IMG/VR virus record: IMGVR_UViG_3300043540_000188
Location: 1-42,623 of that record
Source: a virus
Direction: 5' to 3' (one strand)
DNA length: 42,623 bases
Part shown: positions 1,178 to 14,392 of the stretch, piece after piece
Layout: each line of letters begins with the position of its first letter
Numbering within the stretch: position 1 is the first letter of the stretch
Translations under genes and position numbers: made by a program
The notes under the pieces: model-generated
Database searches by the model: none
What the model was told of the DNA's origin: nothing
Seen by the model: the letters and a program-made list of their open reading frames with translations, nothing else

Positions 1178-1199
1178 GTGATCCCGAATAGCGGATCAC
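1178..1199 (-). terminator. Hairpin GTGATCC / GGATCAC with minus-strand T-run
   Basis: A 7-bp stem (1178-1184 with 1193-1199) has an 8-base loop and, on the minus strand, is followed by a T-rich run. It lies between two divergent promoters, so it could block antisense transcription into the minus-strand unit. An operator role is also possible. Confidence 0.45.
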
Positions 1200-1203
1200 G
1201 ACG

Positions 1204-1303
1204 ACCCTGACTGCCTGATCCTAATTACCTGACCTGATCCTGACCTACATGATCCTGAGTACCTGATCCCATGTGTCTTAATTCTCTTGTCTTAATTCTC
1301 TTG
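1204..1303. repeat. Short direct repeats in the divergent promoter region
   Basis: Several copies of CCTGATCC-type words (about 1204-1270) are followed by two copies of TTAATTCTCTTG at 1278-1289 and 1292-1303. A third copy of the latter lies at 3137-3148, on the far side of the GC-rich gene cassette. The CCTGATCC words may bind a regulator of the promoter at 1310. Confidence 0.6.
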
Positions 1304-1309
1304 CGCCTC

Positions 1310-1337
1310 TTGACAAAAAGAAAAAATGTGCTATAAT
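1310..1337 (+). promoter_or_regulatory. Strong sigma-70-type promoter for the GC-rich cassette
   Basis: TTGACA (1310-1315), a 16-base spacer and TATAAT (1332-1337). It precedes the ATG at 1373, which has AGGAGGG just upstream. Confidence 0.88.
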
Positions 1338-1372
1338 TATAACAACAAAAAAATCAAACAAAGGAGGGTGTC

Positions 1373-1810
1373 ATGTACGTAAAGAAAGGAAGGAAACTAA
1401 CGGCAGAAGAAGTAGAGGATTTTCTAAGGAGGCTGATAGCGGAAAGGCACCTGAAGGTCGACGCCTATGACCTCCAGGCGTATGCCAGGCAATTTGCGGA
1501 GGTCAACGACGTCCTGCTGGGAGATGCCGAAGGAAAAATCTACGGCCTCGTGGAGAAATACCCACGAGCCCTAGACAGAGGGGACCACTATTTCTCTATC
1601 ATCTACGTGTCGGAAGGGACGATCCGGCGTGTATGGATGCCGGAGATCGCCGAGCTCGTGGGTGCGCACACAAAACAGAGGGATGACGTTCCCTTCTTCC
1701 ACTTCAAAAGTGGGGTGATAGGGGCGGACAGACTGATCGAGAGCACCGACAGATTCTTCGAGCTCCTAAAGAGGATGGGTGGATGCTACGCTCAGATCAG
1801 TTGGTTATGA
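1373..1810 (+). CDS. Hypothetical protein, first gene of GC-rich cassette
   Basis: A protein of 145 residues that I do not recognise. The N-terminal part (about 1-45) is charged and looks helical, starting with a lysine-rich segment. The rest has mixed alternating strands and helices and few cysteines. The ATG at 1373 has a strong AGGAGGG and directly follows the 1310 promoter. A rho-independent terminator sits right after its stop (1816-1843), so this gene is probably made in excess over the two behind it. It is much richer in GC than the phage core genes, consistent with later acquisition. No catalytic motif is apparent. Confidence 0.85.
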   Translation: MYVKKGRKLTAEEVEDFLRRLIAERHLKVDAYDLQAYARQFAEVNDVLLGDAEGKIYGLVEKYPRALDRGDHYFSIIYVSEGTIRRVWMPEIAELVGAHTKQRDDVPFFHFKSGVIGADRLIESTDRFFELLKRMGGCYAQISWL

Positions 1811-1815
1811 AAGGA

Positions 1816-1843
1816 GGGAGGGGACTAACACCCCTCCCTTTTT
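1816..1843 (+). terminator. Rho-independent terminator inside the cassette
   Basis: GGGAGGGG (1816-1823), a 7-base loop and CCCCTCCC (1831-1838) are followed by TTTTT. It lies between the first and second cassette genes and should lower expression of the downstream genes. Confidence 0.85.
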
Positions 1844-1863
1844 GCGTCAAAAGGAGGCAAAAA

Positions 1864-2118
1864 ATGAAATGGAAGATAATCGCAAGACACAAATGGGTCG
1901 CAGGTGCAACGATAACCGAGAGCTATAACGACGATGAAGAGAGAAGATTCACGGCAACAATCGATGGTTACAGGAACTGGAGAATCTATGAAGGACACCT
2001 CCGGGAGGATCTCGCTATGGAGGTGATCCGGATTGTGAAATATATACAGAACGAGATCCGGAAAGGGAATGAAGAGATATTCAGTAGAAAGGAATATTCT
2101 AAGGAGGGACAAAGATGA
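1864..2118 (+). CDS. Hypothetical 84-residue protein
   Basis: The reading frame is open from 1783, but the start at 1864 is chosen because AAAGGAGG lies just upstream of that ATG. The product begins MKWKIIARHKW and is basic and aromatic-rich at the N-terminus, with an acidic patch (SYNDDEERR) at about 21-29 and a helical C-terminal half. Its TGA overlaps the ATG of the next gene (ATGA at 2115-2118), which implies translational coupling. No recognised family. It may act with the next protein. Confidence 0.75.
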   Translation: MKWKIIARHKWVAGATITESYNDDEERRFTATIDGYRNWRIYEGHLREDLAMEVIRIVKYIQNEIRKGNEEIFSRKEYSKEGQR

Positions 2119-3029
2119 GAAAAGAAGAAAGAATCAGACACTTCAAAGAACTCACGGGGTCAAAAGCAAGGAAACTGTCTACACTCCATCAGGCGGTCAT
2201 CCAATATCTCGCCGAGCATCCGGCACAACCAATATACAAGAGAGGAAACAGAGACGTAACACTCCATCCGAGGTGGAAAGAATGCACCCTCGAAAGGAAG
2301 GCGGACAGGGCGGCGGCTCATTTCGGTGTGTGGAGGAGAGACGTCGCAGACCAGTATGCGCAGGAACTCACGCTCCAATATGTCGACATAGAAAGAGCGG
2401 GAAGATGTTACCGCCAGTCACGCTCACGGTGGGCGGGCGGTGGACGCTTTGTCCAGATGTACGTGAGAGAAATCCCTGACTGCTGCGGGAGGAGTAGGAG
2501 GGCATGGAGCTACAACGGGAAGTGGTCAGGGACGGATTCGTTTTTAGACTTTTGCGTCACTGCTCGTGCCGTACAGATATTCCCCAGCCTCATCGTCGGT
2601 GGGCTGGTAACCTTAGATGCCACCCCGGTCGAGGGGCATCCAAGAGCATACGGGGCAGTATGGGCAGAGCAGGGTAAGGGCTTCAACATTAAGCCTGTTC
2701 AGGGTTTCATCATCAAAGGCTATCACGCAAAAACAAATAACTTCAAGGCGGCTCTCAAGAAAGTCGCAGAGGCTAGAAGGGCTGCTCTACAAACAATAAT
2801 GCGTCGTCGAGCGGACAGGGCAAATCACTCATCCATATGGGTATCATACGAGGATAGTATTCGGGGGGGCAATTGCCCCAGCGGTACAAAAGCCTTTGCT
2901 CATACTGTCGCCCGTGCTATCGGGGCAGCCGGCGACTTCGCAGTCCGTGCGGATGTGCTACTCCGCATTCGTAATGATGGATACACACGGCGAGCTGTCC
3001 GGGCGGCAGAAATGAGATACCGAACTTGA
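2115..3029 (+). CDS. Hypothetical arginine-rich protein of 304 residues
   Basis: I do not recognise a family. The protein is rich in arginine, alanine and glycine, very basic, and has an N-terminal helical segment (about 1-35) and a basic C-terminus, so nucleic-acid binding is plausible. The start overlaps the stop of the previous gene and AAGGAGG lies upstream. An internal palindrome GGGGCAATTGCCCC lies near 2866-2879. Its GC content resembles the two preceding genes and differs from the rest of the phage. The whole cassette lies between copies of TTAATTCTCTTG at 1292 and 3137. I see no nuclease, methylase or toxin motif by eye. Confidence 0.8.
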   Translation: MRKEERIRHFKELTGSKARKLSTLHQAVIQYLAEHPAQPIYKRGNRDVTLHPRWKECTLERKADRAAAHFGVWRRDVADQYAQELTLQYVDIERAGRCYRQSRSRWAGGGRFVQMYVREIPDCCGRSRRAWSYNGKWSGTDSFLDFCVTARAVQIFPSLIVGGLVTLDATPVEGHPRAYGAVWAEQGKGFNIKPVQGFIIKGYHAKTNNFKAALKKVAEARRAALQTIMRRRADRANHSSIWVSYEDSIRGGNCPSGTKAFAHTVARAIGAAGDFAVRADVLLRIRNDGYTRRAVRAAEMRYRT

Positions 3030-3136
3030 AAAATTGGTAGACCTCGTGAGCGAATGTGATATTGTTCTACACTCAGTAAACTATTATAGCTACCATATCC
3101 TGTGATAGAAATATATGATGTGCTTGTTCTTCTGTG

Positions 3137-3148
3137 TTAATTCTCTTG
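3137..3148. repeat. Direct repeat flanking the GC-rich cassette
   Basis: TTAATTCTCTTG matches exactly the copies at 1278-1289 and 1292-1303. Similarity to the second copy continues for a few bases (GCGC versus GTGC). The rest of 3030-3325 has no gene that I can support; it holds a small CCCCAC/GTTGGGG hairpin near 3164-3179 and the promoter candidates of the next gene. Confidence 0.6.
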
Positions 3149-3242
3149 TGCAATTACAAAGAAGCCCCCACCGTTGGGGTAAGGGTGAGGGCAAAGAGGG
3201 AAAAGGAGGGTCTACTATAAATATATCTCTGACATGATGAAC

Positions 3243-3281
3243 TTGTCAAGTGTTTTCTCGTAGTGTAAATAATACTTGACA
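3243..3281 (+). promoter_or_regulatory. Candidate promoter(s) for the AbrB-like gene
   Basis: TTGTCA (3243-3248) with TAAATA (3266-3271) at a 17-base spacing is one candidate. TTGACA at 3276-3281 with a weak TAGTAT at 19 bases is another. Both point to the ATG at 3326, which has a GGAGG. Confidence 0.5.
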
Positions 3282-3325
3282 TTTTCATGTGTAGAAACCA
3301 TAGTATTATTAAGTGGAGGTGAAAA

Positions 3326-3520
3326 ATGGAATATCTACCTAAGAGAGTAAAACTGCGTGAAACAAGAATATCATACACCAAGAAAGAGAAAACTTATCGA
3401 GTATTTTCTATTGCAGTCCCTGTCGAGTACGTAAGAATGAAAGAATGGAAAGCAGGACAGAAATTCAGCCCGCATCTCACAGAAGAAGGAATAGTATATG
3501 TTGCAGTTCCTTCTTTATAA
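3326..3520 (+). CDS. Small AbrB/SpoVT-like protein (tentative)
   Basis: A protein of 64 residues. The pattern in residues 27-62 (short strand, IAVPVEYV, WKAGQKF, then a terminal strand) resembles the swapped-hairpin AbrB fold found in small phage and plasmid regulators and antitoxins. That assignment is by pattern only. GGAGG lies upstream of the ATG and a promoter candidate precedes it. The next gene starts 9 bases after its stop. It probably binds DNA as a dimer, and could regulate this short plus-strand pair. Confidence 0.7.
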   Translation: MEYLPKRVKLRETRISYTKKEKTYRVFSIAVPVEYVRMKEWKAGQKFSPHLTEEGIVYVAVPSL

Positions 3521-3528
3521 GGTCTGGT

Positions 3529-3819
3529 ATGAATAATCGCCTTCGTGGTAAGAAAACCGAACGTGCTGTCGCCGAACGTATAGGTGGTGTATGTGTTGGT
3601 ATTCTGGGTAAGGAGGACATACAAGTGTCGGACTGGAGTGTAGAGGTGAAACATAGGAAGGTGTTTGCTGGAGAAAAATTCCTCTTACAAAGTGAACGTA
3701 ATTGCCCAAAAGGGAAAACACCTATTGTCATAGTCCATCTACATGGTAAGGAACACAGTAAGGATATTGTAATGATGAGGCTTAGGGATTGGGAAGCATG
3801 GAACGGATCGATAGACTAG
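3529..3819 (+). CDS. PD-(D/E)XK nuclease, Holliday-junction-resolvase-like
   Basis: The frame is open from 3445, but the start at 3529 is chosen because the product then begins MNNRLRGKKTERAVAERIGG, the usual N-terminus of small phage PD-(D/E)XK resolvases (basic start, then a glutamate in the first helix). Next come aspartates before SDWSVEVKHRK, where EVK supplies the metal-binding glutamate and lysine. The length of 96 residues fits this family. A likely role is processing of branched DNA during recombination or before packaging. The ribosome site is weak (TAAGG), so translation may be coupled to the gene in front. Its stop overlaps the stop of the convergent zinc-finger gene by three bases. 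Confidence 0.72.
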   Translation: MNNRLRGKKTERAVAERIGGVCVGILGKEDIQVSDWSVEVKHRKVFAGEKFLLQSERNCPKGKTPIVIVHLHGKEHSKDIVMMRLRDWEAWNGSID

Positions 3820-3992
3820 AAAGGTTTTTTTCTGACATTCTCAAGCGGTAGTTCACTGTTTCTCCGTTTTTTCCGCTGTCGTTGCTTTTTCACTGGTTCG
3901 CAATATTCTAAATGTTCCTGATATACCTTTTCGGCTCTTCCTTCTTCACCTATATCAAGAAACATAGCGCCGCAAACATTACAGATTATCAT
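3816..3992 (-). CDS. Small C2HC zinc-finger protein, 58 residues
   Basis: A short gene found by reading the minus strand downstream of the sigma factor. It begins MIICNVCGAMF and has C4, C7, H27 and C31, a good C2HC zinc-binding set, followed by a very basic tail (about 34-44). Its ATG overlaps the TGA of the sigma gene (ATGA), so the two are translationally coupled. This makes it the last gene of the long minus-strand early operon. The stop converges with the resolvase-like gene on the other strand. It may bind DNA or partner the sigma factor; that is inference from the coupling. Confidence 0.75.
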   Translation of the reverse strand: MIICNVCGAMFLDIGEEGRAEKVYQEHLEYCEPVKKQRQRKKRRNSELPLENVRKKPF

Positions 3993-4546
3993 ACCCTTAC
4001 TCTCTTCCGTATCTTCTTAAGGATACAGTCTATCTTCTGTCTAATTCTCTCCTTGGATAGACCGAGGTCATTCCCTATCTGATCTAGAGTTCTGTCATAG
4101 AAAAACCTGTCTACGATTATTTCCCTCTCGCTTTCCGTGAGCAGAGAAAGTATCTGTTGGACCATGAGCCTGTTGTCTGCATCACTAGTACGCATAGCAG
4201 TGCTATGTAATGCTACTTCTTCCTGAACATCATCAAGACTATACTGCATAACACTCCTACTATTCAACCCGATAGCAAACCTAACCATGTTGTGATAGAC
4301 ATTGATGAGGAAGGGTCTGAACTCTCCCCGTGTATAGTCGTATACTCGCAAATGCTTGAATAGGCTATACATTCCAAAAGATACAAGCTCTTCATACGAA
4401 GTATAGTATTTAGAAGCTATATTGTGGGCGTAGCGTTTGACCGTCTTGACATACTCGGTAAGGTCTTGCCGTTCTATCAGTGTTGGTTGTCTCAAGGCTA
4501 ATGGCACTTTCGGCCTACATCTTAAATCTACCATACTTTCCATCAT
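3989..4546 (-). CDS. RNA polymerase sigma-70-family factor
   Basis: A protein of 185 residues. Region 2 is seen at about 40-95 (SYEELVSFGMYSLFKHLRVYD, then an aromatic segment that would contact the -10). Region 4 is seen at about 135-180 (LTESEREIIVDRFF, then the helix-turn-helix LDQIGNDLGLSKERIRQK). Region 1.1 and a long region 3 are absent, as in small alternative sigma factors. It should bind host core polymerase and redirect it to phage promoters. The four GCAAGTATATA-type promoters in the window are candidate targets. Two ATGs are possible; the second (4543) has better spacing from AAGGAGGG. The gene overlaps the 3' end of the EndoQ gene. Confidence 0.9.
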   Translation of the reverse strand: MMESMVDLRCRPKVPLALRQPTLIERQDLTEYVKTVKRYAHNIASKYYTSYEELVSFGMYSLFKHLRVYDYTRGEFRPFLINVYHNMVRFAIGLNSRSVMQYSLDDVQEEVALHSTAMRTSDADNRLMVQQILSLLTESEREIIVDRFFYDRTLDQIGNDLGLSKERIRQKIDCILKKIRKRVRV

Positions 4547-5525
4547 AACCCTCCTTGAATGATATATTTTTCCTTCTTATCCTATCGAGAAGCTGGTTAA
4601 GATAGTCGTTATCGGTAATTTCCATACCTGATAAGATGTCTAACTCTTTGGTGGTTTGTATATCTACTTTAACTTTACGCAGAATGTCGGATAAAGGAAT
4701 GATGTAAGTGTCCTTGAGAGGTGAAGCAGTATCTCTATATTTCGATACTGTATACTTTGTACCGATTGTATACTGCTTACCACATACAGGGCATACTGTA
4801 TCTGTATCGGAAGATGTGTTGCAATCCCTATGTCCGTTGAGATAATACTTTCCGAGTTCCGGCGGATGCTCCAAAGTCCAGTAGCTCTCTCGTACAATTG
4901 CTTGATGGAATGTAAGAGTATTCGGGATCATAGTGACTTCTCTCCCAATCTTGCTAGTGCTATGTGCATCGGAAAATGATACAAGAGGAATAGATTGTAG
5001 GCATGAAATACTCCATATCATCTCTCGTGAAGCTGATAGACCTGTTTCTAATGCGTCTGGTTTGAGTTCTACAACCTGTTCTGGTGTCCATGAATATCTA
5101 TACCCCATGATACCATACCATGGGGTGAAACAGTGGGCAGGGATGAATAGAACAGTATCAGATACAGACTTAACAGCATCTTTTAGGTCGTGTAAATTAA
5201 GATAGATGTTAGGTTTCCCTTGACTATCACTCCAGTCTTCCAACTGTACCCTTACCTTTTCCACGTCATCCCATGTCATAACAAGCAATACATGACATTG
5301 CTTATTCCTGTCTACACTGCATATTTCTGTAGTAGGTAACACCTCTATATCTGGGCTGTCTATGTAGAGTTCCCATTTTTGCTTCCATTCTCTTACAAAT
5401 ATATCACCTGTTCCAACGATGTCAACGCCCTTCTGTCTGCATTCAGACAGAATAGCCTCAGGAGTAATATGAGCAGAAGTACCTCTAGAGTATGGAGAAT
5501 GGATATGAAGGTCAACGTATTTCAT
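4515..5525 (-). CDS. Endonuclease Q (EndoQ)-like PHP-domain DNA repair nuclease
   Basis: A protein of 336 residues. EndoQ nicks DNA 5' of deaminated bases such as uracil and hypoxanthine and of abasic sites. PHP metal-site motifs are visible: HIH (7-9), VGTGD (D41), E67, H78, PAHCFTPW (H131), ALETGLSA (E160) and FSDAH (D186, H188). A zinc module follows: GHRDC (232-235) and CPVCG (245-249). This order and wording is the EndoQ signature and not that of a polymerase PHP domain. A longer frame is open to 5768, but the start at 5525 is chosen because the protein then begins MKYVDLHIHS and sits one base after the stop of the preceding gene. No strong ribosome site is seen, so coupling is likely. 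Phage EndoQ is unusual. Confidence 0.88.
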   Translation of the reverse strand: MKYVDLHIHSPYSRGTSAHITPEAILSECRQKGVDIVGTGDIFVREWKQKWELYIDSPDIEVLPTTEICSVDRNKQCHVLLVMTWDDVEKVRVQLEDWSDSQGKPNIYLNLHDLKDAVKSVSDTVLFIPAHCFTPWYGIMGYRYSWTPEQVVELKPDALETGLSASREMIWSISCLQSIPLVSFSDAHSTSKIGREVTMIPNTLTFHQAIVRESYWTLEHPPELGKYYLNGHRDCNTSSDTDTVCPVCGKQYTIGTKYTVSKYRDTASPLKDTYIIPLSDILRKVKVDIQTTKELDILSGMEITDNDYLNQLLDRIRRKNISFKEGYDGKYGRFKM

Positions 5526-5526
5526 G

Positions 5527-5784
5527 CTATTTCTGTATTTCCCATTTGCCAGTGAAAGGGTTATACTCAAGTGGAGTTTCTGGTCTACCATAATCCCATT
5601 TGTTCTCAAAGGGGTTATATTGTAGTTGTGCATCAGGTCTTTCATAGGACCATGTATTTTCCATGGGATTGTATCTGAGTTCGTTCTGCATAGTTCCGTT
5701 ATTCTGTTGCATGATTCTGTTATGTTGTGCAAAGCATACTGTTGTAAAAGAGATAAACAATGTGGCAATTAGTAATGTTTTCAT
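5527..5784 (-). CDS. Secreted protein with three 18-residue YNP repeats
   Basis: An 85-residue product that starts with a clear signal peptide: MKTLLIATLFISFTTVCFA, cleavage probably after A19. There is no lipobox. The mature part holds three repeats at exactly 18-residue spacing, each with L-x-YNP at about 36, 54 and 72, then an aromatic W and, in the first two, a YxRP turn. AAGGAGGA lies upstream of the ATG at 5784, which is preferred over an upstream ATG at 5814. The EndoQ ATG is one base beyond its stop. A secreted or periplasmic protein in an early DNA-metabolism operon is odd. Alteration of the host envelope or superinfection exclusion are possible roles, but are guesses. Confidence 0.8.
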   Translation of the reverse strand: MKTLLIATLFISFTTVCFAQHNRIMQQNNGTMQNELRYNPMENTWSYERPDAQLQYNPFENKWDYGRPETPLEYNPFTGKWEIQK

Positions 5785-5799
5785 TTTGTATTCCTCCTT

Positions 5800-5901
5800 A
5801 TATTTGCCCCACAATCAATTTTCTTGAAGGGAGGGGTATACTACCCTATCTGTGCCTTTTAAAAAATCGATTGTAGATGAAATATGACGATTTGAAGGGC
5901 A
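5800..5901. repeat. Long near-palindrome LP-C (third copy of 12.6-kb elements)
   Basis: An intergenic near-palindrome of about 90 bp. It starts ATATTTGCCC and ends near AAATATGACGATTT, with inner arms carrying CAAT, AATTTT and a GTATAC-type centre. It shares order and many bases with the two elements at 12607 and 12712, including a flanking CGATTT...GGGCA. It covers the leader of the YNP-repeat gene up to its ribosome site, so it may form a regulatory hairpin there. Confidence 0.8.
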
Positions 5902-5912
5902 ATTTATAGCCA

Positions 5913-7487
5913 TCATAACCATGTCATAGTATCCCTTAACTCAAACTCTATTGCTTCCCTAAACCATAGCGGAAATAGTGAAGGATGTCTGATCAATATC
6001 CCTTTTGCCTTCTCGTCGTATACATATACCCTCGCCCAATCCTTCTCATGTCTCACTGCCCTACCTGAACCTTGGACAATATCCTGTGCACATTGAGATA
6101 GATACCATAGTCTACCCCATTTGCCAGAGTAACATCTTGCATTTGTAAGAGGATCGTTCAAATCAGGAAATGGACACTTGAGGAACAATACCCACCTTGC
6201 CTTGTCGTCGGGGAGGTCTATGCCTCGTATAGAAGATGGACTGACGAATACTCCATCTTCTGATTTCAGGAACTTCTGGAACACTTCCTGCTTGTTAGAC
6301 GGATTGTGGATGAATAATCTTGGTGATAAGTTTTCAAGAACGGATGATAGCTGGTAGTTTACTGTATGGATTATGCCTTTCCTAACTTCTACCTGTAAGA
6401 GTTTCAGCACTTCATCTTTTATCCTGTTTTTTGTCCAGTCGTCTAATCCTGTTTTGTGAGATAAGCCCCACATGGGAATAAAGAAAATAGGCCTGTTGTC
6501 GCTATTAAACATAGAAGGAAATTCAGCATAGTCCATCTCATCAAGGTGTATGCCAAATAAACCGCATAATACCTCTTTCGCTGGTAGAGTAGCAGACATG
6601 AATATAAACCGTTTTCCATAGTCGAATAAAAACATGTCTGCCAAATCTCTTGTTATCCACTTTGGCTTGAGATAGATGGTGTTTCCTGTGTAGTAGTATA
6701 CCCATTTATCACCTGTTAATTGTTGCTCGTCTACTACACTAGACAGGAATAACAGTTTTTTGTACATTCTTGTTATGGTGTTATACTGCTGCAATATGCG
6801 TCTATGGTGCTGTTGTATATGTCTGTAGTGAGATATCCTCACTACCTGCTCGTGATATTCGTTCAGTCTCGTGGATACTACTGGTAATGCTTGCTGGACA
6901 AATTTAGCGAAACTCTCCAACACTGTCTTTCTATCTGGTAATACTGTTATTCCAAGATCGGTTAAGGCATCTGTGTTAAATACAAATGAAATAAACTCTA
7001 CAAGGGCATTCTCTATTGCATCAGCTTCGTCTATGATTATCGTTCTCGACTTATACTTGTCCTTGCTCAAGAATCCTGCATAGTTACATGCAGTCAAAAA
7101 ATAGGCAAAGTTAAGAATAGAACAGGGATTTTTCAAAGCATTAGTTTTAGCTTCTTCATACTTACAGTCAAAACACTTAACAGTTATATTGCAATCACCA
7201 GCGTTATCAAACTCACTACCAAGTTTTATACACTTATAGTTACTTCTGCCCCAGAGGATGGAACAGAAGTCAAAGTCCTGTTGGAGTTGTGTCTGCAGGT
7301 GGCGTGATGAACAGAGGTAGAAGAATGGAGGCTCTACTGCCTCCATAGCAACAAGAGACTTACCGCTTCCTGTTGGGGCATTGATAGCGATAAATCTCTT
7401 ATTGCTATTCTTGATAAAGTCTATGGCTTCTACCTGAACATCACGGAGCCTTTTGCCTGCTAATCTTCCTTTTGTGGCTTTGTCCAT
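5913..7487 (-). CDS. XPD/DinG-like Fe-S superfamily 2 helicase
   Basis: A protein of 524 residues. It has a Walker A APTGSGKS (37-44), four cysteines (86, 99, 105, 108) placed as in the iron-sulphur domain of XPD/DinG, and the DEAD box IIDEADA (153-156). Motif VI QGSGRAVR lies near residue 470. These helicases move 5' to 3' on single-stranded DNA using ATP. It probably unwinds DNA or clears R-loops in phage replication or recombination. The start overlaps the 3' end of the ERCC4 nuclease gene, and helicase and nuclease may work together as in XPF/Hef systems. No strong ribosome site is seen, so coupling is likely. It is shorter than E. coli DinG (about 700 residues) but complete for the motor core. 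Confidence 0.9.
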   Translation of the reverse strand: MDKATKGRLAGKRLRDVQVEAIDFIKNSNKRFIAINAPTGSGKSLVAMEAVEPPFFYLCSSRHLQTQLQQDFDFCSILWGRSNYKCIKLGSEFDNAGDCNITVKCFDCKYEEAKTNALKNPCSILNFAYFLTACNYAGFLSKDKYKSRTIIIDEADAIENALVEFISFVFNTDALTDLGITVLPDRKTVLESFAKFVQQALPVVSTRLNEYHEQVVRISHYRHIQQHHRRILQQYNTITRMYKKLLFLSSVVDEQQLTGDKWVYYYTGNTIYLKPKWITRDLADMFLFDYGKRFIFMSATLPAKEVLCGLFGIHLDEMDYAEFPSMFNSDNRPIFFIPMWGLSHKTGLDDWTKNRIKDEVLKLLQVEVRKGIIHTVNYQLSSVLENLSPRLFIHNPSNKQEVFQKFLKSEDGVFVSPSSIRGIDLPDDKARWVLFLKCPFPDLNDPLTNARCYSGKWGRLWYLSQCAQDIVQGSGRAVRHEKDWARVYVYDEKAKGILIRHPSLFPLWFREAIEFELRDTMTWL

Positions 7488-7990
7488 TGTTCATTATTGA
7501 GAGGGGATACTCCCTCTATATCTTTGCTTTCCCGTAAGTGATTGTATAGTTTTACCAATCGTGATAGCATCCACCATCTCGCTTTTCGCCTATCTTCAGC
7601 ATAGTAGATATGCAATCCTCTGATCTCGAAAGAAGCGAGACTATGATACCGTGCATTAGGATGGACGGAAGAAAACCTATGAATATCATATATATCTTTC
7701 TCCGTTCCTTCTATCAGTAACCCCTTCCACCAGTAATCCTTCAGCCTTGCTATTTCTCTTTCAAACCTCTCTCTGTTCTTTCCTATCACAGATAACAAGT
7801 CTGATATGCTTTTACGTTCTATTGCTATTCTGTCTTCAAAGCCTAAAACAGAATAGTCACCTTGATCGAGTTTCTTATAGATTATCCAAGGCTTACTGGT
7901 AAGAAATAGAGGAGTCTGTTCTCTCGTGTCTACAACAAGCGTGAAACCATCAGGGATTTCTATGCTTGGACTAAACTTGTGGATTTTCAT
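7460..7990 (-). CDS. ERCC4/XPF-type nuclease
   Basis: A protein of 176 residues with the ERCC4 active site: VVDTREQTP (D21, E24), GDYSV (44-48) and IAIERKSISDLL (E58, R59, K60, D64). These residues bind metal for cleavage of branched or flapped DNA. It lacks the helicase and tandem HhH regions of cellular XPF, as is usual for phage versions. Its 5' end overlaps the previous gene by 20 bases and its 3' end overlaps the helicase gene by 28 bases, so these three are one translational unit. The probable role is trimming of recombination or replication intermediates. Confidence 0.9.
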   Translation of the reverse strand: MKIHKFSPSIEIPDGFTLVVDTREQTPLFLTSKPWIIYKKLDQGDYSVLGFEDRIAIERKSISDLLSVIGKNRERFEREIARLKDYWWKGLLIEGTEKDIYDIHRFSSVHPNARYHSLASFEIRGLHIYYAEDRRKARWWMLSRLVKLYNHLRESKDIEGVSPLNNEQWTKPQKED

Positions 7991-8207
7991 ATAGTTTTCT
8001 TTTGCCTATGAACTCGTCCTCTAGGTTTGCTATTCCGGTTACCCAGTTCAAGAAGTTAGTAATCCTATATACGGCTTGTCTATCCATCCCGTCTATGACT
8101 TGTGGAAAGTATAAGGATATGGTAGTCTCACCTCTGCTAAAGCGTATCTCGGCCATAAGCCTTGTATCGTCATCTATTTTGTCTTCTATTTCAACCCTAA
8201 ACTCCAT
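7971..8207 (-). CDS. Hypothetical 78-residue protein
   Basis: A small acidic protein. Its first half looks like beta strands (MEFRVEIEDKI, then TTISLYFPQV) and the second half a helix with NFLNWVTGI. AAGGAGGG lies just before the ATG. It is followed directly, with overlap, by the ERCC4 nuclease gene, so it may be a partner or regulator of that nuclease. I do not recognise the family. Confidence 0.75.
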   Translation of the reverse strand: MEFRVEIEDKIDDDTRLMAEIRFSRGETTISLYFPQVIDGMDRQAVYRITNFLNWVTGIANLEDEFIGKRKLYENPQV

Positions 8208-8325
8208 GGTAACCCTCCTTAATAAACAAATCTAATCTTAACCCCATGACAATACCCCTTAATAAACAGAATCAATCTTAAATCTTAATAAGCAAAAGGG
8301 CATCCCCCAGAAAGTAGAGTAAGGA
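8208..8325. repeat. Short direct repeats in intergenic DNA
   Basis: CTTAATAAACA is followed by AATCTTAA-type words about two and a half times between 8217 and 8292. No gene is apparent. This may be a slippage-prone spacer between the SSB-like gene and the nuclease operon. Confidence 0.5.
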
Positions 8326-8349
8326 GGAGAGGGCATTGCCACCCTCTCC
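8326..8349 (-). terminator. Hairpin after the SSB-like gene
   Basis: GGAGAGGG (8326-8333) and CCCTCTCC (8342-8349) form an 8-bp GC-rich stem with an 8-base loop, about 10 bases past the stop of the SSB-like gene on the minus strand. The following sequence is C/T-rich but has no clear T-run, so it may be a partial terminator or a stabiliser of the upstream mRNA. Confidence 0.55.
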
Positions 8350-8358
8350 CCCTTGATA

Positions 8359-8904
8359 TTACCAGCTATCCTCATCTTCTTCTTTTTCAGTTTCTTTCGT
8401 AAACACTTCTTCCTGTACTGGTGGTTTAGCAGATTTAAGTGGAGCAAACTCATATACATCAGCAACAGTTCTATCTGCACCGTTCTTGTCCTTGTATGTC
8501 CTGTGTCTGACAAGTCCTGCAACGGTTCTACTTGCAAGCTGGGCTATAGCCATATTAATTACTTGCATGCACTTACTGCTAGATATATCAAGATACTTGT
8601 TTGCCCACTCCTGCACTGATAAATCAGGGTTAAGGTTAAACTTCTTTTCCAGTTTGTCTACTATACCAGCACCCTCAAGCATCATAGCCAAGGCTTTGCG
8701 TCCTGACGCTCTGGACAAGTCAAATGATACAAAAGCATTACTACCTGTCTCCTCACCCTCAGAGCAAGTAAGAGTAAAGTTAAGTCTGCTTGTAGAGCTT
8801 CCATCTTCAGCCGTTCCAAACTTACCCTCACCTATCGTGAAGATGTGCTTTCCTTCTGATAACAGGGAAAAACCTATCCTCCAATCTGCATCTGTGTATC
8901 TCAT
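8359..8904 (-). CDS. Phage single-stranded DNA-binding protein, DUF669-like
   Basis: A protein of 181 residues. The N-terminal half (about 10-65) has the strand-rich pattern of DUF669-like proteins often found beside phage Sak4 recombinases (for example EGKHIFTIGEGK, then a strand with FTLTCSEGEE). The C-terminus is strongly acidic and ends in EDEDSW. An acidic tail with a terminal aromatic residue is the partner-recruiting tip seen in SSB and T7 gp2.5. AAGGAGG lies upstream. It follows a 50-residue acidic gene and the Sak4-like ATPase, making a recombination set. It would coat single-stranded DNA and load partners. Confidence 0.75.
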   Translation of the reverse strand: MRYTDADWRIGFSLLSEGKHIFTIGEGKFGTAEDGSSTSRLNFTLTCSEGEETGSNAFVSFDLSRASGRKALAMMLEGAGIVDKLEKKFNLNPDLSVQEWANKYLDISSSKCMQVINMAIAQLASRTVAGLVRHRTYKDKNGADRTVADVYEFAPLKSAKPPVQEEVFTKETEKEEDEDSW

Positions 8905-8905
8905 G

Positions 8906-9058
8906 TTAAACCTCCTTGTTAAATTTTATCTCCTCGTCGGAGAGTGTTTGGTCGTCATCATATCTGTGCCTGTGTAGTGTTTTCTTCTGCTGATAATAAT
9001 AATCATCATCAAGTTCATCGAGTTCATCTTCATCTATATCTCCATACCACATGTCCAT
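8906..9058 (-). CDS. Small acidic protein, 50 residues
   Basis: A short gene found by reading the minus strand between the Sak4-like and SSB-like genes. The product starts MDMWYGDIDEDELDELDDD, is very acidic, and has a YYY stretch and a short basic patch (KKTLHRHR). AAGGAGGG lies upstream of the ATG at 9058. Its stop is one base before the SSB-like ATG, whose ribosome site lies within this gene. It could be a DNA mimic or an adaptor for the neighbouring recombination proteins. No family is recognised. Confidence 0.65.
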   Translation of the reverse strand: MDMWYGDIDEDELDELDDDYYYQQKKTLHRHRYDDDQTLSDEEIKFNKEV

Positions 9059-9069
9059 ATCATCCCTCC

Positions 9070-9843
9070 TTACTCACCTCCCCCTTTTTCTTTTGTTTCC
9101 TTTTCATGTGCAAGTATCTTTGTCCAGTTCAACAGCCCCTTGATTTCCCTACCTGAACGTTTACCTGACCACTTTGCGATGAATGAACCATCAGAAGTAA
9201 ATGTAACCATAGGTGGATATAAGACATTTCCTTCAGCATCCAGTCTCTGCTGAACAAGACCTATCAAGTCGAAGAATGCAGGATAGTCCTTATTAAAGTC
9301 TTTACCTGCAAATGCAGGAGCAGCGGACAATTCCCTGTTCCACTTCGGCATATCGTCAAGAAGAGATGTACATACTACTATGACACCATAGGTAGTCATA
9401 AGTCCAAGTGTCTTGCATAGCCTCTTAGCGAGGGATGATAAAGTTCCGTATCCTGTCATATCCGTTCTACCTAATGCTACGAGGGGTCTTGTATTCCCGA
9501 AGACTTCAGCTTTTGCTGTTTCATCCTCGATGTCTCCCAGCAGTATAACATTTACCAGAAACGAAATTGGGTCAACTACAAGTGATTTATACTTCTTCGT
9601 AATGTCTTCCATATGCTGGTTGAGATAGCTGAACAGGCCGAGAAAGTCTTCCGGGTGGAGTATGTCTATGTCTGTGAAGTCTACTACATGTCCTGCTGTA
9701 CGTTCTACTGGTTTAGGGTCACACTCAATGTAGAGTATGGGTTTGGGTAGAGTAGACAGGGTTGAAACAGTCTTACCTACTCCTGTTTCACCGTAAATCA
9801 AAGCCATTGTTCCTGATACTTTTTGTGGTTTTCTTATTAGCAT
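9070..9843 (-). CDS. Sak4-like RecA-fold ATPase (phage recombinase)
   Basis: A protein of 257 residues. Walker A is GETGVGKT (18-25), following a strand ALIY. Walker B is SLVVDP (D91). The layout, a single RecA core with no N-terminal domain, matches the Sak4 single-strand annealing/strand-exchange proteins of phages. Sak4 acts with a cognate SSB-like protein, and such a gene lies just downstream. The C-terminus ends in a lysine- and glutamate-rich tail. AAGGAGGG precedes the ATG. It would drive phage recombination or recombination-dependent replication. Confidence 0.85.
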   Translation of the reverse strand: MLIRKPQKVSGTMALIYGETGVGKTVSTLSTLPKPILYIECDPKPVERTAGHVVDFTDIDILHPEDFLGLFSYLNQHMEDITKKYKSLVVDPISFLVNVILLGDIEDETAKAEVFGNTRPLVALGRTDMTGYGTLSSLAKRLCKTLGLMTTYGVIVVCTSLLDDMPKWNRELSAAPAFAGKDFNKDYPAFFDLIGLVQQRLDAEGNVLYPPMVTFTSDGSFIAKWSGKRSGREIKGLLNWTKILAHEKETKEKGGGE

Positions 9844-9894: not shown

Positions 9895-10134
9895 TTAGCA
9901 TAGCTTCCAAGAGGGATAAATTGTTACCTCACCAGTTACTGGAGATGAATATCTAAGTATTCTAGCTTTACCGTATAGAGCACAAGCAATAGCGAGATAC
10001 ATCCAGATAGGCGCACTACCGGTAAGAGTAACAACGTCTCCATTACCAACGAGGTCAAGAGCTTGCTGGATGTATTTGTCGAGTTTGTCTAGTCTAGCCT
10101 GCCCGTCATGAATGGTCGATAAGTCGATTGTCAT
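9895..10134 (-). CDS. Csx3-like protein, copy 1
   Basis: A protein of 79 residues starting MTIDLSTIHDG; AAGGAGGG lies before the ATG at 10134, preferred over one at 10185. Residues 38-50 read LTGSAPIWMYLAI and 65-72 PVTGEVTI. This resembles the core of CRISPR-associated Csx3/Crn3, whose family pattern is GRGPIW(L)(H/Y), then AH, then YDPRLGG and a strand. Csx3 binds and cleaves cyclic tetra-adenylate, the second messenger of type III CRISPR. Here the aspartate and arginine of the DPR motif are replaced (SSPVTG) and the later histidine is missing, so this copy may bind rather than cut. It is a tandem paralogue of the next gene. The fold call is from motif pattern alone. Confidence 0.6.
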   Translation of the reverse strand: MTIDLSTIHDGQARLDKLDKYIQQALDLVGNGDVVTLTGSAPIWMYLAIACALYGKARILRYSSPVTGEVTIYPSWKLC

Positions 10135-10147
10135 AATACCCTCCTTT

Positions 10148-10423
10148 TTATAAGTTTGCGTTACCGTGTCTGAGAAAGTATACAATATAGTGGTTGAATA
10201 CTGTTATTTCACCGGTCTCTGGAGAGACGTATTTGAGCACTGCGGCCTTATCATTTAGAGCATGGGCAATAATAAGATACATCCAGATAGGCGCATCGCC
10301 GGTAAGAATAACAGTATTTCCGCTACCGGCAAGTTTGAGAATTTGCCTAATATAGCTATTGAGTTTGTCTAATCTAGGTTGTCCGCCATGAATGGTCGAT
10401 AAATCTATTATCACTGTTTTCAC
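10148..10423 (-). CDS. Csx3-like protein, copy 2 (GTG start)
   Basis: A protein of 91 residues. It starts at GTG, with AAGGAGGGG just upstream. The N-terminus (IDLSTIHGGQPRLDKL) and core (TGDAPIWMYLIIAHAL at 41-56, then SPETGEITV) match copy 1 along its length, and DNA identity is also visible, so the pair arose by tandem duplication. Compared with copy 1 it keeps two histidines at Csx3-like positions: AHAL (H54) and FNH (H78). The DPR aspartate and arginine are again absent (VSPETG). It has an extra C-terminal tail of about 12 residues. Possible roles are a ring nuclease with altered chemistry, a cyclic-oligonucleotide sponge, or a non-CRISPR regulator. The pair may form a hetero-oligomer. 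Confidence 0.6.
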   Translation of the reverse strand: MKTVIIDLSTIHGGQPRLDKLNSYIRQILKLAGSGNTVILTGDAPIWMYLIIAHALNDKAAVLKYVSPETGEITVFNHYIVYFLRHGNANL

Positions 10424-10465: not shown

Positions 10466-11260
10466 TCACTCTATGTCTCTATCTATTGTATATAGCACAT
10501 CTGAGACATTACCTGTTTCACATATACTCATATATTCACATTCTGAAGGAGATAGGCAATTAGCCTTATGCTGTGGAAAACGTTCTAATTTGTTCAGGTA
10601 GTTGATTATCTTCAAGCAGAGATTGATACGCCATTCAAGTTGTGTTAAGTCAAACTCACTACGGTAGAATTTTAATCCCCACTTGCATTCTTCTCTGTCT
10701 GCCCTGTACTTTGGGAAGTAGAATGTTGGGCGTTTCAGGATGTCTGTGTACAGCCTGTCTACAAACTTTTCAGGTGCTTCTTTGATCTCTTGCATACGCA
10801 ATGCAGGAACACGGATAGGTAAGATATAGCAGTATTCGAATACAGGACTCAAGTAGAAATACCATTCCAGTTGGCTTTGTGCTACAAATGAATTCATATA
10901 GAAGTCTGGCTTGGAAGTATATTTCATCTCACCAAACCATTTTCTGTTCTTGGACACCATGTCAAGTGTTCCTGTTGCTCCATGATTCTTGAACTGAACC
11001 TCATGGTCAACATCAGGCGGTAATAGCTCTAACTCTTTCATAGTTTTAGCCATCACCTCTACCACCTGCCTATCCTTCTGCTCCTCAGGCGAAAAGTATA
11101 CAGGTTCTTCTATTCCTGAAATTAGTGAGTGTAGATATGTTCCTTGTCGAAGCGGTAAGGATAATAGATGAGGTCTTATCTTGATACCCTGCTGGATATA
11201 ATAAAACCTTCTTGGGCATCTCTCGAAATCATTTAAGTAGCTTCTTCTTATCTCCTCCAT
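10466..11260 (-). CDS. Cas4/RecB-like PD-(D/E)XK nuclease with Fe-S cysteines
   Basis: A protein of 264 residues. It opens with SYLNDFERCPRRFYY (C15), the usual Cas4/AddB-type start. Then come H44 (TYLH), TGTLDMV (D100) and FGEMKY (E111, K113), the metal and catalytic residues. The C-terminus has cysteines near 235, 241 and 247. With C15 these make the four-cysteine iron-sulphur site of Cas4-like nucleases. Such proteins resect DNA ends to give single strands for recombinases, here Sak4. It is the first gene of the long minus-strand early operon, right behind the promoter at 11289-11317, and has AAGGAGGG. Phage Cas4 homologues may also affect host CRISPR adaptation. Confidence 0.88.
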   Translation of the reverse strand: MEEIRRSYLNDFERCPRRFYYIQQGIKIRPHLLSLPLRQGTYLHSLISGIEEPVYFSPEEQKDRQVVEVMAKTMKELELLPPDVDHEVQFKNHGATGTLDMVSKNRKWFGEMKYTSKPDFYMNSFVAQSQLEWYFYLSPVFEYCYILPIRVPALRMQEIKEAPEKFVDRLYTDILKRPTFYFPKYRADREECKWGLKFYRSEFDLTQLEWRINLCLKIINYLNKLERFPQHKANCLSPSECEYMSICETGNVSDVLYTIDRDIE

Positions 11261-12819: not shown

Positions 12820-13164
12820 ATGGCAAACAAAACAAAAAAGTATCAGAAAGAGTATGAGATGTTTATCAAAGAACAGCATATCTGCCAGTGCGGTTGCGGA
12901 ACAGTATTAAAACCTTCTTATGAAGTGTTTTATACGAGTATGAAAAAATATAACATGCCTCCAAGATATATACACAGTCATCATCCGAGAAAGATAGACA
13001 TAAAGCATAAAGAGATACCTGATATAATAGAGTATAATGGGTGTAAGATATTGTTGCTTAAGAGTAGTAATAGAAGATGTGAGAAGAGTTACAAGTGTGA
13101 GAAATATCTGGACTGTTTAAATCATATTGCTATGTTAGATGCTGAAGGGTGGAATGCTATATGA
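12820..13164 (+). CDS. HNH-like zinc protein, possible endonuclease
   Basis: A 114-residue protein. The start at 12820 is set by AAGGAGGATAAC. C22, C24 and C26 (ICQCGCG) and the segment RYIHSHHPRK (about 55-64) resemble the small phage HNH pattern with a CxCGCG knuckle followed by an R-Y-I-x-x-H-H core. Later cysteines (CEKSYKCEKYLDC) may bind a second zinc. The HNH catalytic asparagine is not obvious, so activity is uncertain. It could be a free-standing homing-type endonuclease or a structural zinc protein. Its stop overlaps that of the convergent ATP-grasp gene by 8 bases. Confidence 0.7.
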   Translation: MANKTKKYQKEYEMFIKEQHICQCGCGTVLKPSYEVFYTSMKKYNMPPRYIHSHHPRKIDIKHKEIPDIIEYNGCKILLLKSSNRRCEKSYKCEKYLDCLNHIAMLDAEGWNAI

Positions 13165-14392
13165 AGTCTATTCCCATGCTTTTTAACTTCTCTATCTCTC
13201 CTTTAATCTCGTCTAACAGGTGGTATTCCTTCTCTGCTCTTACTACCTTTACCTCTTCCCCTATCTTCCTGATCCCCTCTATTACCCCATCTATCGTATC
13301 AGCACCATAGATAATAGTGCATACAATAGTACCGCCCTTGGAAGCATAATACTTTTTATCCTTCTTGTATGCTGTGCTAAACTTGATATAAGGTCTATAC
13401 TTATCTGGAAATCTAACCTCAAGGCTTACATCTTTAAGCTCTTCTGAACGAACAGGTAAGCAGCCCCAATACTTCTCTCTTACATCAAGGGTTACCTTCT
13501 CATTCTTTGCTATCTTGTAGATTACTTCAGGATAGTTACGGATAGCTGTGGTGAAGATATGACCAAGAGGATGAGGAATACGGCAGGTCATATCAATGAG
13601 GTAATCTTTGGCAGGACTAACTATTCTCTGTTCAGTACTTACAAATCCTCTGTAATCAAAGGTAGTAAGCATTTTATTCAGATGTGGTTCTGTTCTAGTA
13701 AACCACTTAGGTATCCTGTTCCCCCATACCCCTATGTATGCTGAATGGTGTTCTACACCCCACATCAAAGGGAAACAGAAACCATTAGCAGGAGAGAAGA
13801 TACCATCTACTCCTACTTCTACTGCATCTTTAACTTCTTGTTCTACTATGAACTCATACTGCTGTGCAAACTTACCCCATCTTACCTGAAGTATGTCCAA
13901 CAATGGTTCTACCTCATCATAAGAAGGAGAATAAAGGGTCTCACAATCTCCTCTGAATATACTTATCTTAACTACAACATTGTTATTCTGTTTCAGTATG
14001 TCTCTTAACTTGTCTATACCTACTACTCTCCATGTCTTCATGACTGGTAATCCTACATGCTTTAACCAGCTCTTCAGATACCATCTGTCTAACTCTAACT
14101 TCTCTCCTCTACCTGCCCCAAAACAAACCTTGCCCTGTTTTCTGAAGTAGTCTATAATGTCTCCGTATCCTATATCGAATGTCGCTATCATATCTACATC
14201 GTTTATGCGGTAGAAAGGGAACATTACCTTCTTGATACCTTCAAAGCCTAATCCGTATGAGAAGTTGTTGAATACAGGGAAGGCTGTCATGAAGTGTGTC
14301 CAGTAATAGACATCATAAGTAGAAGATAATCTTAAAGCATGTTCTACCTCTAATCCTGTTCCTAATACAAGGACTGATTTCTTGTTAGCCAT
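13157..14392 (-). CDS. ATP-grasp family protein
   Basis: A protein of 411 residues. The N-terminus (KKSVLVLGTG) is a Rossmann-like pre-ATP-grasp domain. The central part has the ATP-grasp elements VVVKISIFRGDCET (about 154-167) and EVGVDGIFS (about 212-220), followed by RIPHPLG near 292. The layout recalls PurD-like carboxylate-amine ligases, but the substrate is unknown; phages carry several uncharacterised members. It is the last gene of the late minus-strand series, separated from the ejection-protein gene by IR6. No strong ribosome site is obvious just before the ATG. It could modify a virion protein or a small molecule. Confidence 0.8.
   Translation of the reverse strand: MANKKSVLVLGTGLEVEHALRLSSTYDVYYWTHFMTAFPVFNNFSYGLGFEGIKKVMFPFYRINDVDMIATFDIGYGDIIDYFRKQGKVCFGAGRGEKLELDRWYLKSWLKHVGLPVMKTWRVVGIDKLRDILKQNNNVVVKISIFRGDCETLYSPSYDEVEPLLDILQVRWGKFAQQYEFIVEQEVKDAVEVGVDGIFSPANGFCFPLMWGVEHHSAYIGVWGNRIPKWFTRTEPHLNKMLTTFDYRGFVSTEQRIVSPAKDYLIDMTCRIPHPLGHIFTTAIRNYPEVIYKIAKNEKVTLDVREKYWGCLPVRSEELKDVSLEVRFPDKYRPYIKFSTAYKKDKKYYASKGGTIVCTIIYGADTIDGVIEGIRKIGEEVKVVRAEKEYHLLDEIKGEIEKLKSMGIDFI

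Follow-up and report, generated by a model that had tools for sequence, protein, structure and literature searches.

The window analysed here, a virus record of 42,623 bases from IMG/VR (IMGVR_UViG_3300043540_000188), carries two small genes in tandem on its minus strand. Copy 1 (csx3A; positions 10148 to 10423) starts with GTG and encodes 91 amino acids, copy 2 (csx3B; positions 9895 to 10134) starts with ATG and encodes 79 amino acids, and each is preceded by a strong ribosome-binding site of the AAGGAGG type. From the open reading frame calls, Pfam and PADLOC profiles, and AlphaFold models, we assign both products to a variant of Csx3, whose usual enzymatic task is to turn off a CRISPR alarm signal of bacteria. 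An initial interpretation made without database searches (the sequence-only reading) had described a duplicated pair within an early phage operon; both open reading frames were found at the positions it gave, and the pair indeed lies within a co-directional replication and recombination operon that also includes a PD-(D/E)XK nuclease and a sigma factor. The nuclease, which is Cas4/RecB-like, is the upstream neighbor (10466 to 11260, minus strand), and a Sak4-like AAA/ssDNA-annealing protein lies downstream (9070 to 9843, minus strand). The remainder of the early-type module (3989 to 9058, minus strand) includes a 50-amino-acid acidic open reading frame, a 181-amino-acid protein, a 78-amino-acid open reading frame, an ERCC4 nuclease, a DinG/XPD-like helicase, a PHP-like protein, and the sigma factor. 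Because a promoter scan of the window returned matches at chance level only, it is solely this gene content that suggests early expression. Within the module, the 50-amino-acid product (8906 to 9058, minus strand) has a very high content of D, E, and Y, and its gene has its own ribosome-binding site, and the PHP-like protein (4515 to 5768, minus strand; motif DLHIHSPYS), which has no Pfam match, may be a phosphoesterase.

The nearest phage relative of the window (IMGVR_UViG_3300005573_000186, here L025/L026) has a terminase that is 76% identical and a capsid that is 82% identical to those of the window, but its early module is unrelated and contains no Csx3, pointing to module exchange. A 411-amino-acid protein of the window (13157 to 14392, minus strand), ATP-grasp-like by eye and without a Pfam match, is 71% identical in the same relative (L026). 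Host assignment through relatives of the terminase and helicase gave distant and varied matches, and no type III system was tied to the host.

Kinship with Csx3, the central claim of the sequence-only reading, was borne out by profile searches and by the structural comparison that it had proposed. The Pfam family Cas_csx3 (PF09620) matched copy 1 at 23.2 bits (E value, 6e-5), above the cut-off of 21 bits, and copy 2 at 17 bits (E value, 0.005), narrowly under it; scores against TIGR02579 (20 bits for copy 1 and 12.8 bits for copy 2) were both far under the cut-off of 55.4. The best profile match of both was PADLOC PDLC01844 (E values of 1.7e-25 for copy 1 and 1.1e-27 for copy 2), of which the matched part is the C-terminal Csx3 end of the CARF2--CARF_HEPN_CSX3 fusion family. 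AlphaFold models were obtained with pLDDT values of 88.7 (copy 1) and 85.8 (copy 2), and the top PDB match in Foldseek was AfCsx3 in each case, though with weak E values (probability of 0.91 and E value of 0.09 for copy 1; probability of 0.99 and E value of 0.05 for copy 2). For the copy 2 model, PDB matches 1 to 6 were all AfCsx3, with a TM score of 0.61 to the cA4 complex (6yud). The resemblance of both copies to Csx3 exceeds chance; the models predict that both keep the Csx3 fold, and by profile they are closest to a divergent Csx3 variant. Identity with AcrIII-1 or with another PHROG family was rejected, since neither copy matched the DUF1874 (AcrIII-1) domain in Pfam or any PHROG family.

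The two proteins are 58 to 59% identical and form a sister pair in a tree of nine relatives (support, 96/93), so that the duplication recognized in the sequence-only reading is most simply lineage-specific. Over 74 shared codons, dN is 0.29 and dS is 1.01 (dN/dS, ∼0.29), which indicates purifying selection and argues against decay. This ratio, together with intact reading frames and ribosome-binding sites, rules out pseudogene decay of the copies.

In AfCsx3, cA4 lies between two dimers (PMC7371418). The face around D69 (I22, S44, G45, R46, I49, and R71) makes most of the contacts to cA4, and the face around H60 (H57, H60, and H80) is the proposed source of metal and catalysis (PMC7371418). 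The H60A mutant still binds cA4 between dimers and leaves it uncut, and activity is regained when H60A and D69A proteins are mixed (PMC7371418); the two faces can thus come from different chains. Using AfCsx3 numbering, taken from chain alignments and from PMC7371418, we compared the pair with eight other members of the variant (L003, L005, L030 to L034, and L044). G45, P48, I49, and W50 are kept in both copies, as is the SPxTG loop, and copy 2 retains its TGSAPIW and SPVTGE loops. At the positions of D69 and R71, copy 1 has S and E and copy 2 has S and V, which confirms the loss of the DPR residues from both. However, these residues are also missing in all eight other members, where S-P replaces D-P, and R46 is missing from these eight and both copies; two classical Csx3 proteins (L049 and L050) contain DPR as well as all three histidines. 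DPR loss is therefore a property of the whole variant and not of the phage pair, and, because it extends to all other members, those in cellular cas10 loci included, it does not in itself indicate a disarmed phage protein, contrary to the phage-specific inactivation that had been suggested.

What sets the pair apart is the opposite face. H57, H60, and H80 are invariant in the eight other members, viral and cellular, and loss of this histidine face (AHxxH and the C-terminal H) is confined to the window pair among the variant members compared. Copy 2 reads C, Y, and S at the three positions, so that it lacks not only the two histidines that had been reported as missing (H57 and H60) but H80 as well; copy 1 keeps H57 and H80 and has N in place of H60, a change that the sequence-only reading had missed. 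Of 21 positions invariant in the others, 5 are changed in copy 2, among them all three histidines (P = 0.0075 in a post hoc test). Copy 1 is acidic at the positions of R46 (D) and R71 (E), as is no other member, and copy 2 has residues typical of the variant at the phosphate-contact positions. The two copies are thus damaged in complementary ways. A further feature common to them is a histidine at position 12 (STIH), where relatives have LY, IY, or LF.

Among the cellular members, L003 is a lone homologue that a genome scan revealed in a Bacteroidetes metagenome-assembled genome; its type III-D locus includes RT-Cas1, and it adjoins a TM-CARF gene. L005 and L030 are CARF-HEPN-Csx3 fusions, identified with the fusion profile and domain searches, that carry the variant as the C-terminal domain; L005 sits in a complete type III-B locus. 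Such fusions are rare, occurring in 1 of 297 sampled genomes of the phylum and 2 of 245 in the class. A cas10 gene lies on the same contig within ∼10 kb in all three cellular members, and a GGDD cyclase motif is present both in the Cas10 that accompanies L003 and in the one encoded at the G051 locus (L027).

The variant was also found on five further IMG/VR contigs classed as viral (L031 to L034 and L044), all of which were detected only by means of a broad DNA pattern and alignments that included the cellular members; when either copy was used as a single query against viral contigs, no match was obtained. One of these contigs carries portal, terminase, and endolysin genes (L032) and another a phage-type RNA polymerase (L033). 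Four of the records were searched whole and have one copy each (L031 to L034), and one copy was seen in the stretch of L044 that was examined; duplication and histidine-face loss distinguish the window pair from these five contigs. The viral homologues on other contigs occupy gene neighborhoods unlike that of the window. No match was found among isolated phages by tblastn of 50,697 phage records, and plasmid searches returned only two distant annotated crn3 genes. Cas10 was absent from the virus records tested (the window, L031 to L034, and the relative G299), so that in the variant-bearing records among them the gene does not belong to a type III locus; a misbinned CRISPR locus was ruled out. 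The variant clade as a whole has been maintained both within type III loci and by mobile elements. Two of the viral contigs carry type IV-B-like genes (L034, positions 1193 to 4467; L044, positions 596 to 1697), namely csf1 and cas11, with csf2, csf3, and a cysH-like gene in addition on L034; a literature search found no paper on an association of such genes with a Csx3 variant.

We propose, as a possibility that falls somewhat short of probable, that this tandem-duplicated Csx3 variant of a mobile element acts early in infection against the cyclic oligoadenylate of a host type III CRISPR system, binding the messenger without cutting it and most likely doing so as a mixed oligomer. The proposal draws on homology, predicted fold, duplication, purifying selection, the residue pattern, and the context of the relatives. 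The duplication would have arisen in one lineage, and the pair would be made early and directed at the host signal. The TGxAPIW and SPxTG loops, kept in both copies, would lie on the face that matches the Csx3 ligand face, and the opposite, metal-binding histidine face would have been dismantled, in part in copy 1 and wholly in copy 2, leaving proteins that hold the messenger with no cleavage. In a mixed oligomer, the ligand-type face would come from copy 2, and copy 1 would contribute the histidine-type face that remains; such complementary faces would leave the assembly unable to extend into a filament. In favor of a messenger-linked role, every cellular member lies near cas10, and two of the three are fused to a CARF-HEPN ribonuclease. 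Against it, binding of cA4 is not assured, given that the R46 and R71 contacts are absent throughout the variant and replaced by acidic residues in copy 1. With these contacts missing, cA4 is not to be assumed as the ligand, and the substrate of a variant that has the histidines but not D69, R71, or R46 may differ from cA4. The weak Foldseek E values, the lack of Csx3 in the nearest phage relative, and a host search that tied no type III system to the virus also count against the proposal. It has also been argued that the large messenger output of type III systems may defeat sponging (PMC13148439). Set against this objection is Csx15, which binds cA4 between stacked dimers and of which some members are non-enzymatic, though it has not been seen in phages (PMC13148439). 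The stronger claim, that division of the faces between the copies makes an obligate mixed oligomer that captures the type III messenger with no open-ended Csx3 filament, as the first phage sponge for cyclic oligoadenylate, or split ring nuclease, with a Csx3 fold, seems to us unlikely.

The complementary damage also lends itself to the main rival explanation, which we regard as unlikely: that the copies are active only jointly, cutting cyclic oligoadenylate where a copy 1 dimer (the face of H57, N60, and H80) meets a copy 2 dimer (the ligand face), possibly helped by the shared H12. A split ring nuclease would suit a copy 1 that has H57 and H80 but acidic residues at the phosphate contacts and a copy 2 in which the reverse holds, and it has a precedent in the published trans-complementation of AfCsx3 faces (PMC7371418); the STIH motif of both copies, as opposed to LY, IY, or LF in relatives, adds to this. 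Yet H60, which is essential in AfCsx3, is gone from both copies, D69 and R71 are absent, and it is a guess from the alignment that H12 lies close to the position of I22, a contact residue in AfCsx3.

Other explanations look to different partners. The copies might join host Csx3-variant or CARF-HEPN-Csx3 proteins as poisoned subunits and so block the effector, as could be imagined from the nearest cellular homologues, which are domains or neighbors of CARF effectors; we consider this very unlikely, since disabling a ring nuclease would strengthen defense if the ribonuclease to which it is fused were not blocked as well, and the fusion is as rare as given above. An improbable alternative outside counter-defense is that the Csx3 fold was reused in the replication and recombination operon for an accessory protein that binds nucleotides or nucleic acids. 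The position of the pair between the PD-(D/E)XK nuclease and the Sak4-like gene agrees with such a role, and AfCsx3 has been crystallized with RNA too (3wzi); however, the other viral homologues have different neighborhoods, and every cellular homologue lies in a type III locus.

A 2025 survey of 28,114 phage genomes reported AcrIII-1, Csx20, and Csx16 but no Crn3/Csx3 (PMC12409355), and our literature search, which covered only a minority of subscription papers, turned up no description of a Csx3 sponge in phages. A divergent Csx3 variant is now known from six virus-classed contigs, on one of which it occurs as a duplicated pair with an eroded active site. If the proposed binding role is correct, the pair would represent a counter to type III CRISPR that binds the messenger, which the viral counters known so far mostly cut. 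The variant itself, in which the histidines are kept and D69, R71, and R46 are gone, raises the question of which messenger is handled.

Among known systems, the Csx3 variant domain of PDLC01844 shares the TGxAPIW and SPxTG loops and ∼46 to 53% identity with the copies, which differ from it in being free-standing, tandem, viral, eroded on the histidine face, and outside a type III locus. Crn3/Csx3 (A. fulgidus AF_1864; PF09620, TIGR02579) is alike in predicted fold and in the kept G45, P48, I49, and W50, but the copies lack its D69, R71, R46, and H60, and copy 2 also lacks H57 and H80. Csx15, Tad1, Tad2, Acb2, and Acb4 belong to families different from that of the copies, and the top 50 fold matches of the copies included none of the phage sponges Tad1, Tad2, Acb2, and Acb4; the likeness is in the proposed working only, a messenger bound without (fast) cutting, by stacking dimers in the case of Csx15. 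The viral ring nuclease AcrIII-1 (DUF1874) resembles the pair in the role proposed for the latter, virus-borne removal of the type III messenger, but has an unrelated fold, and it cuts.
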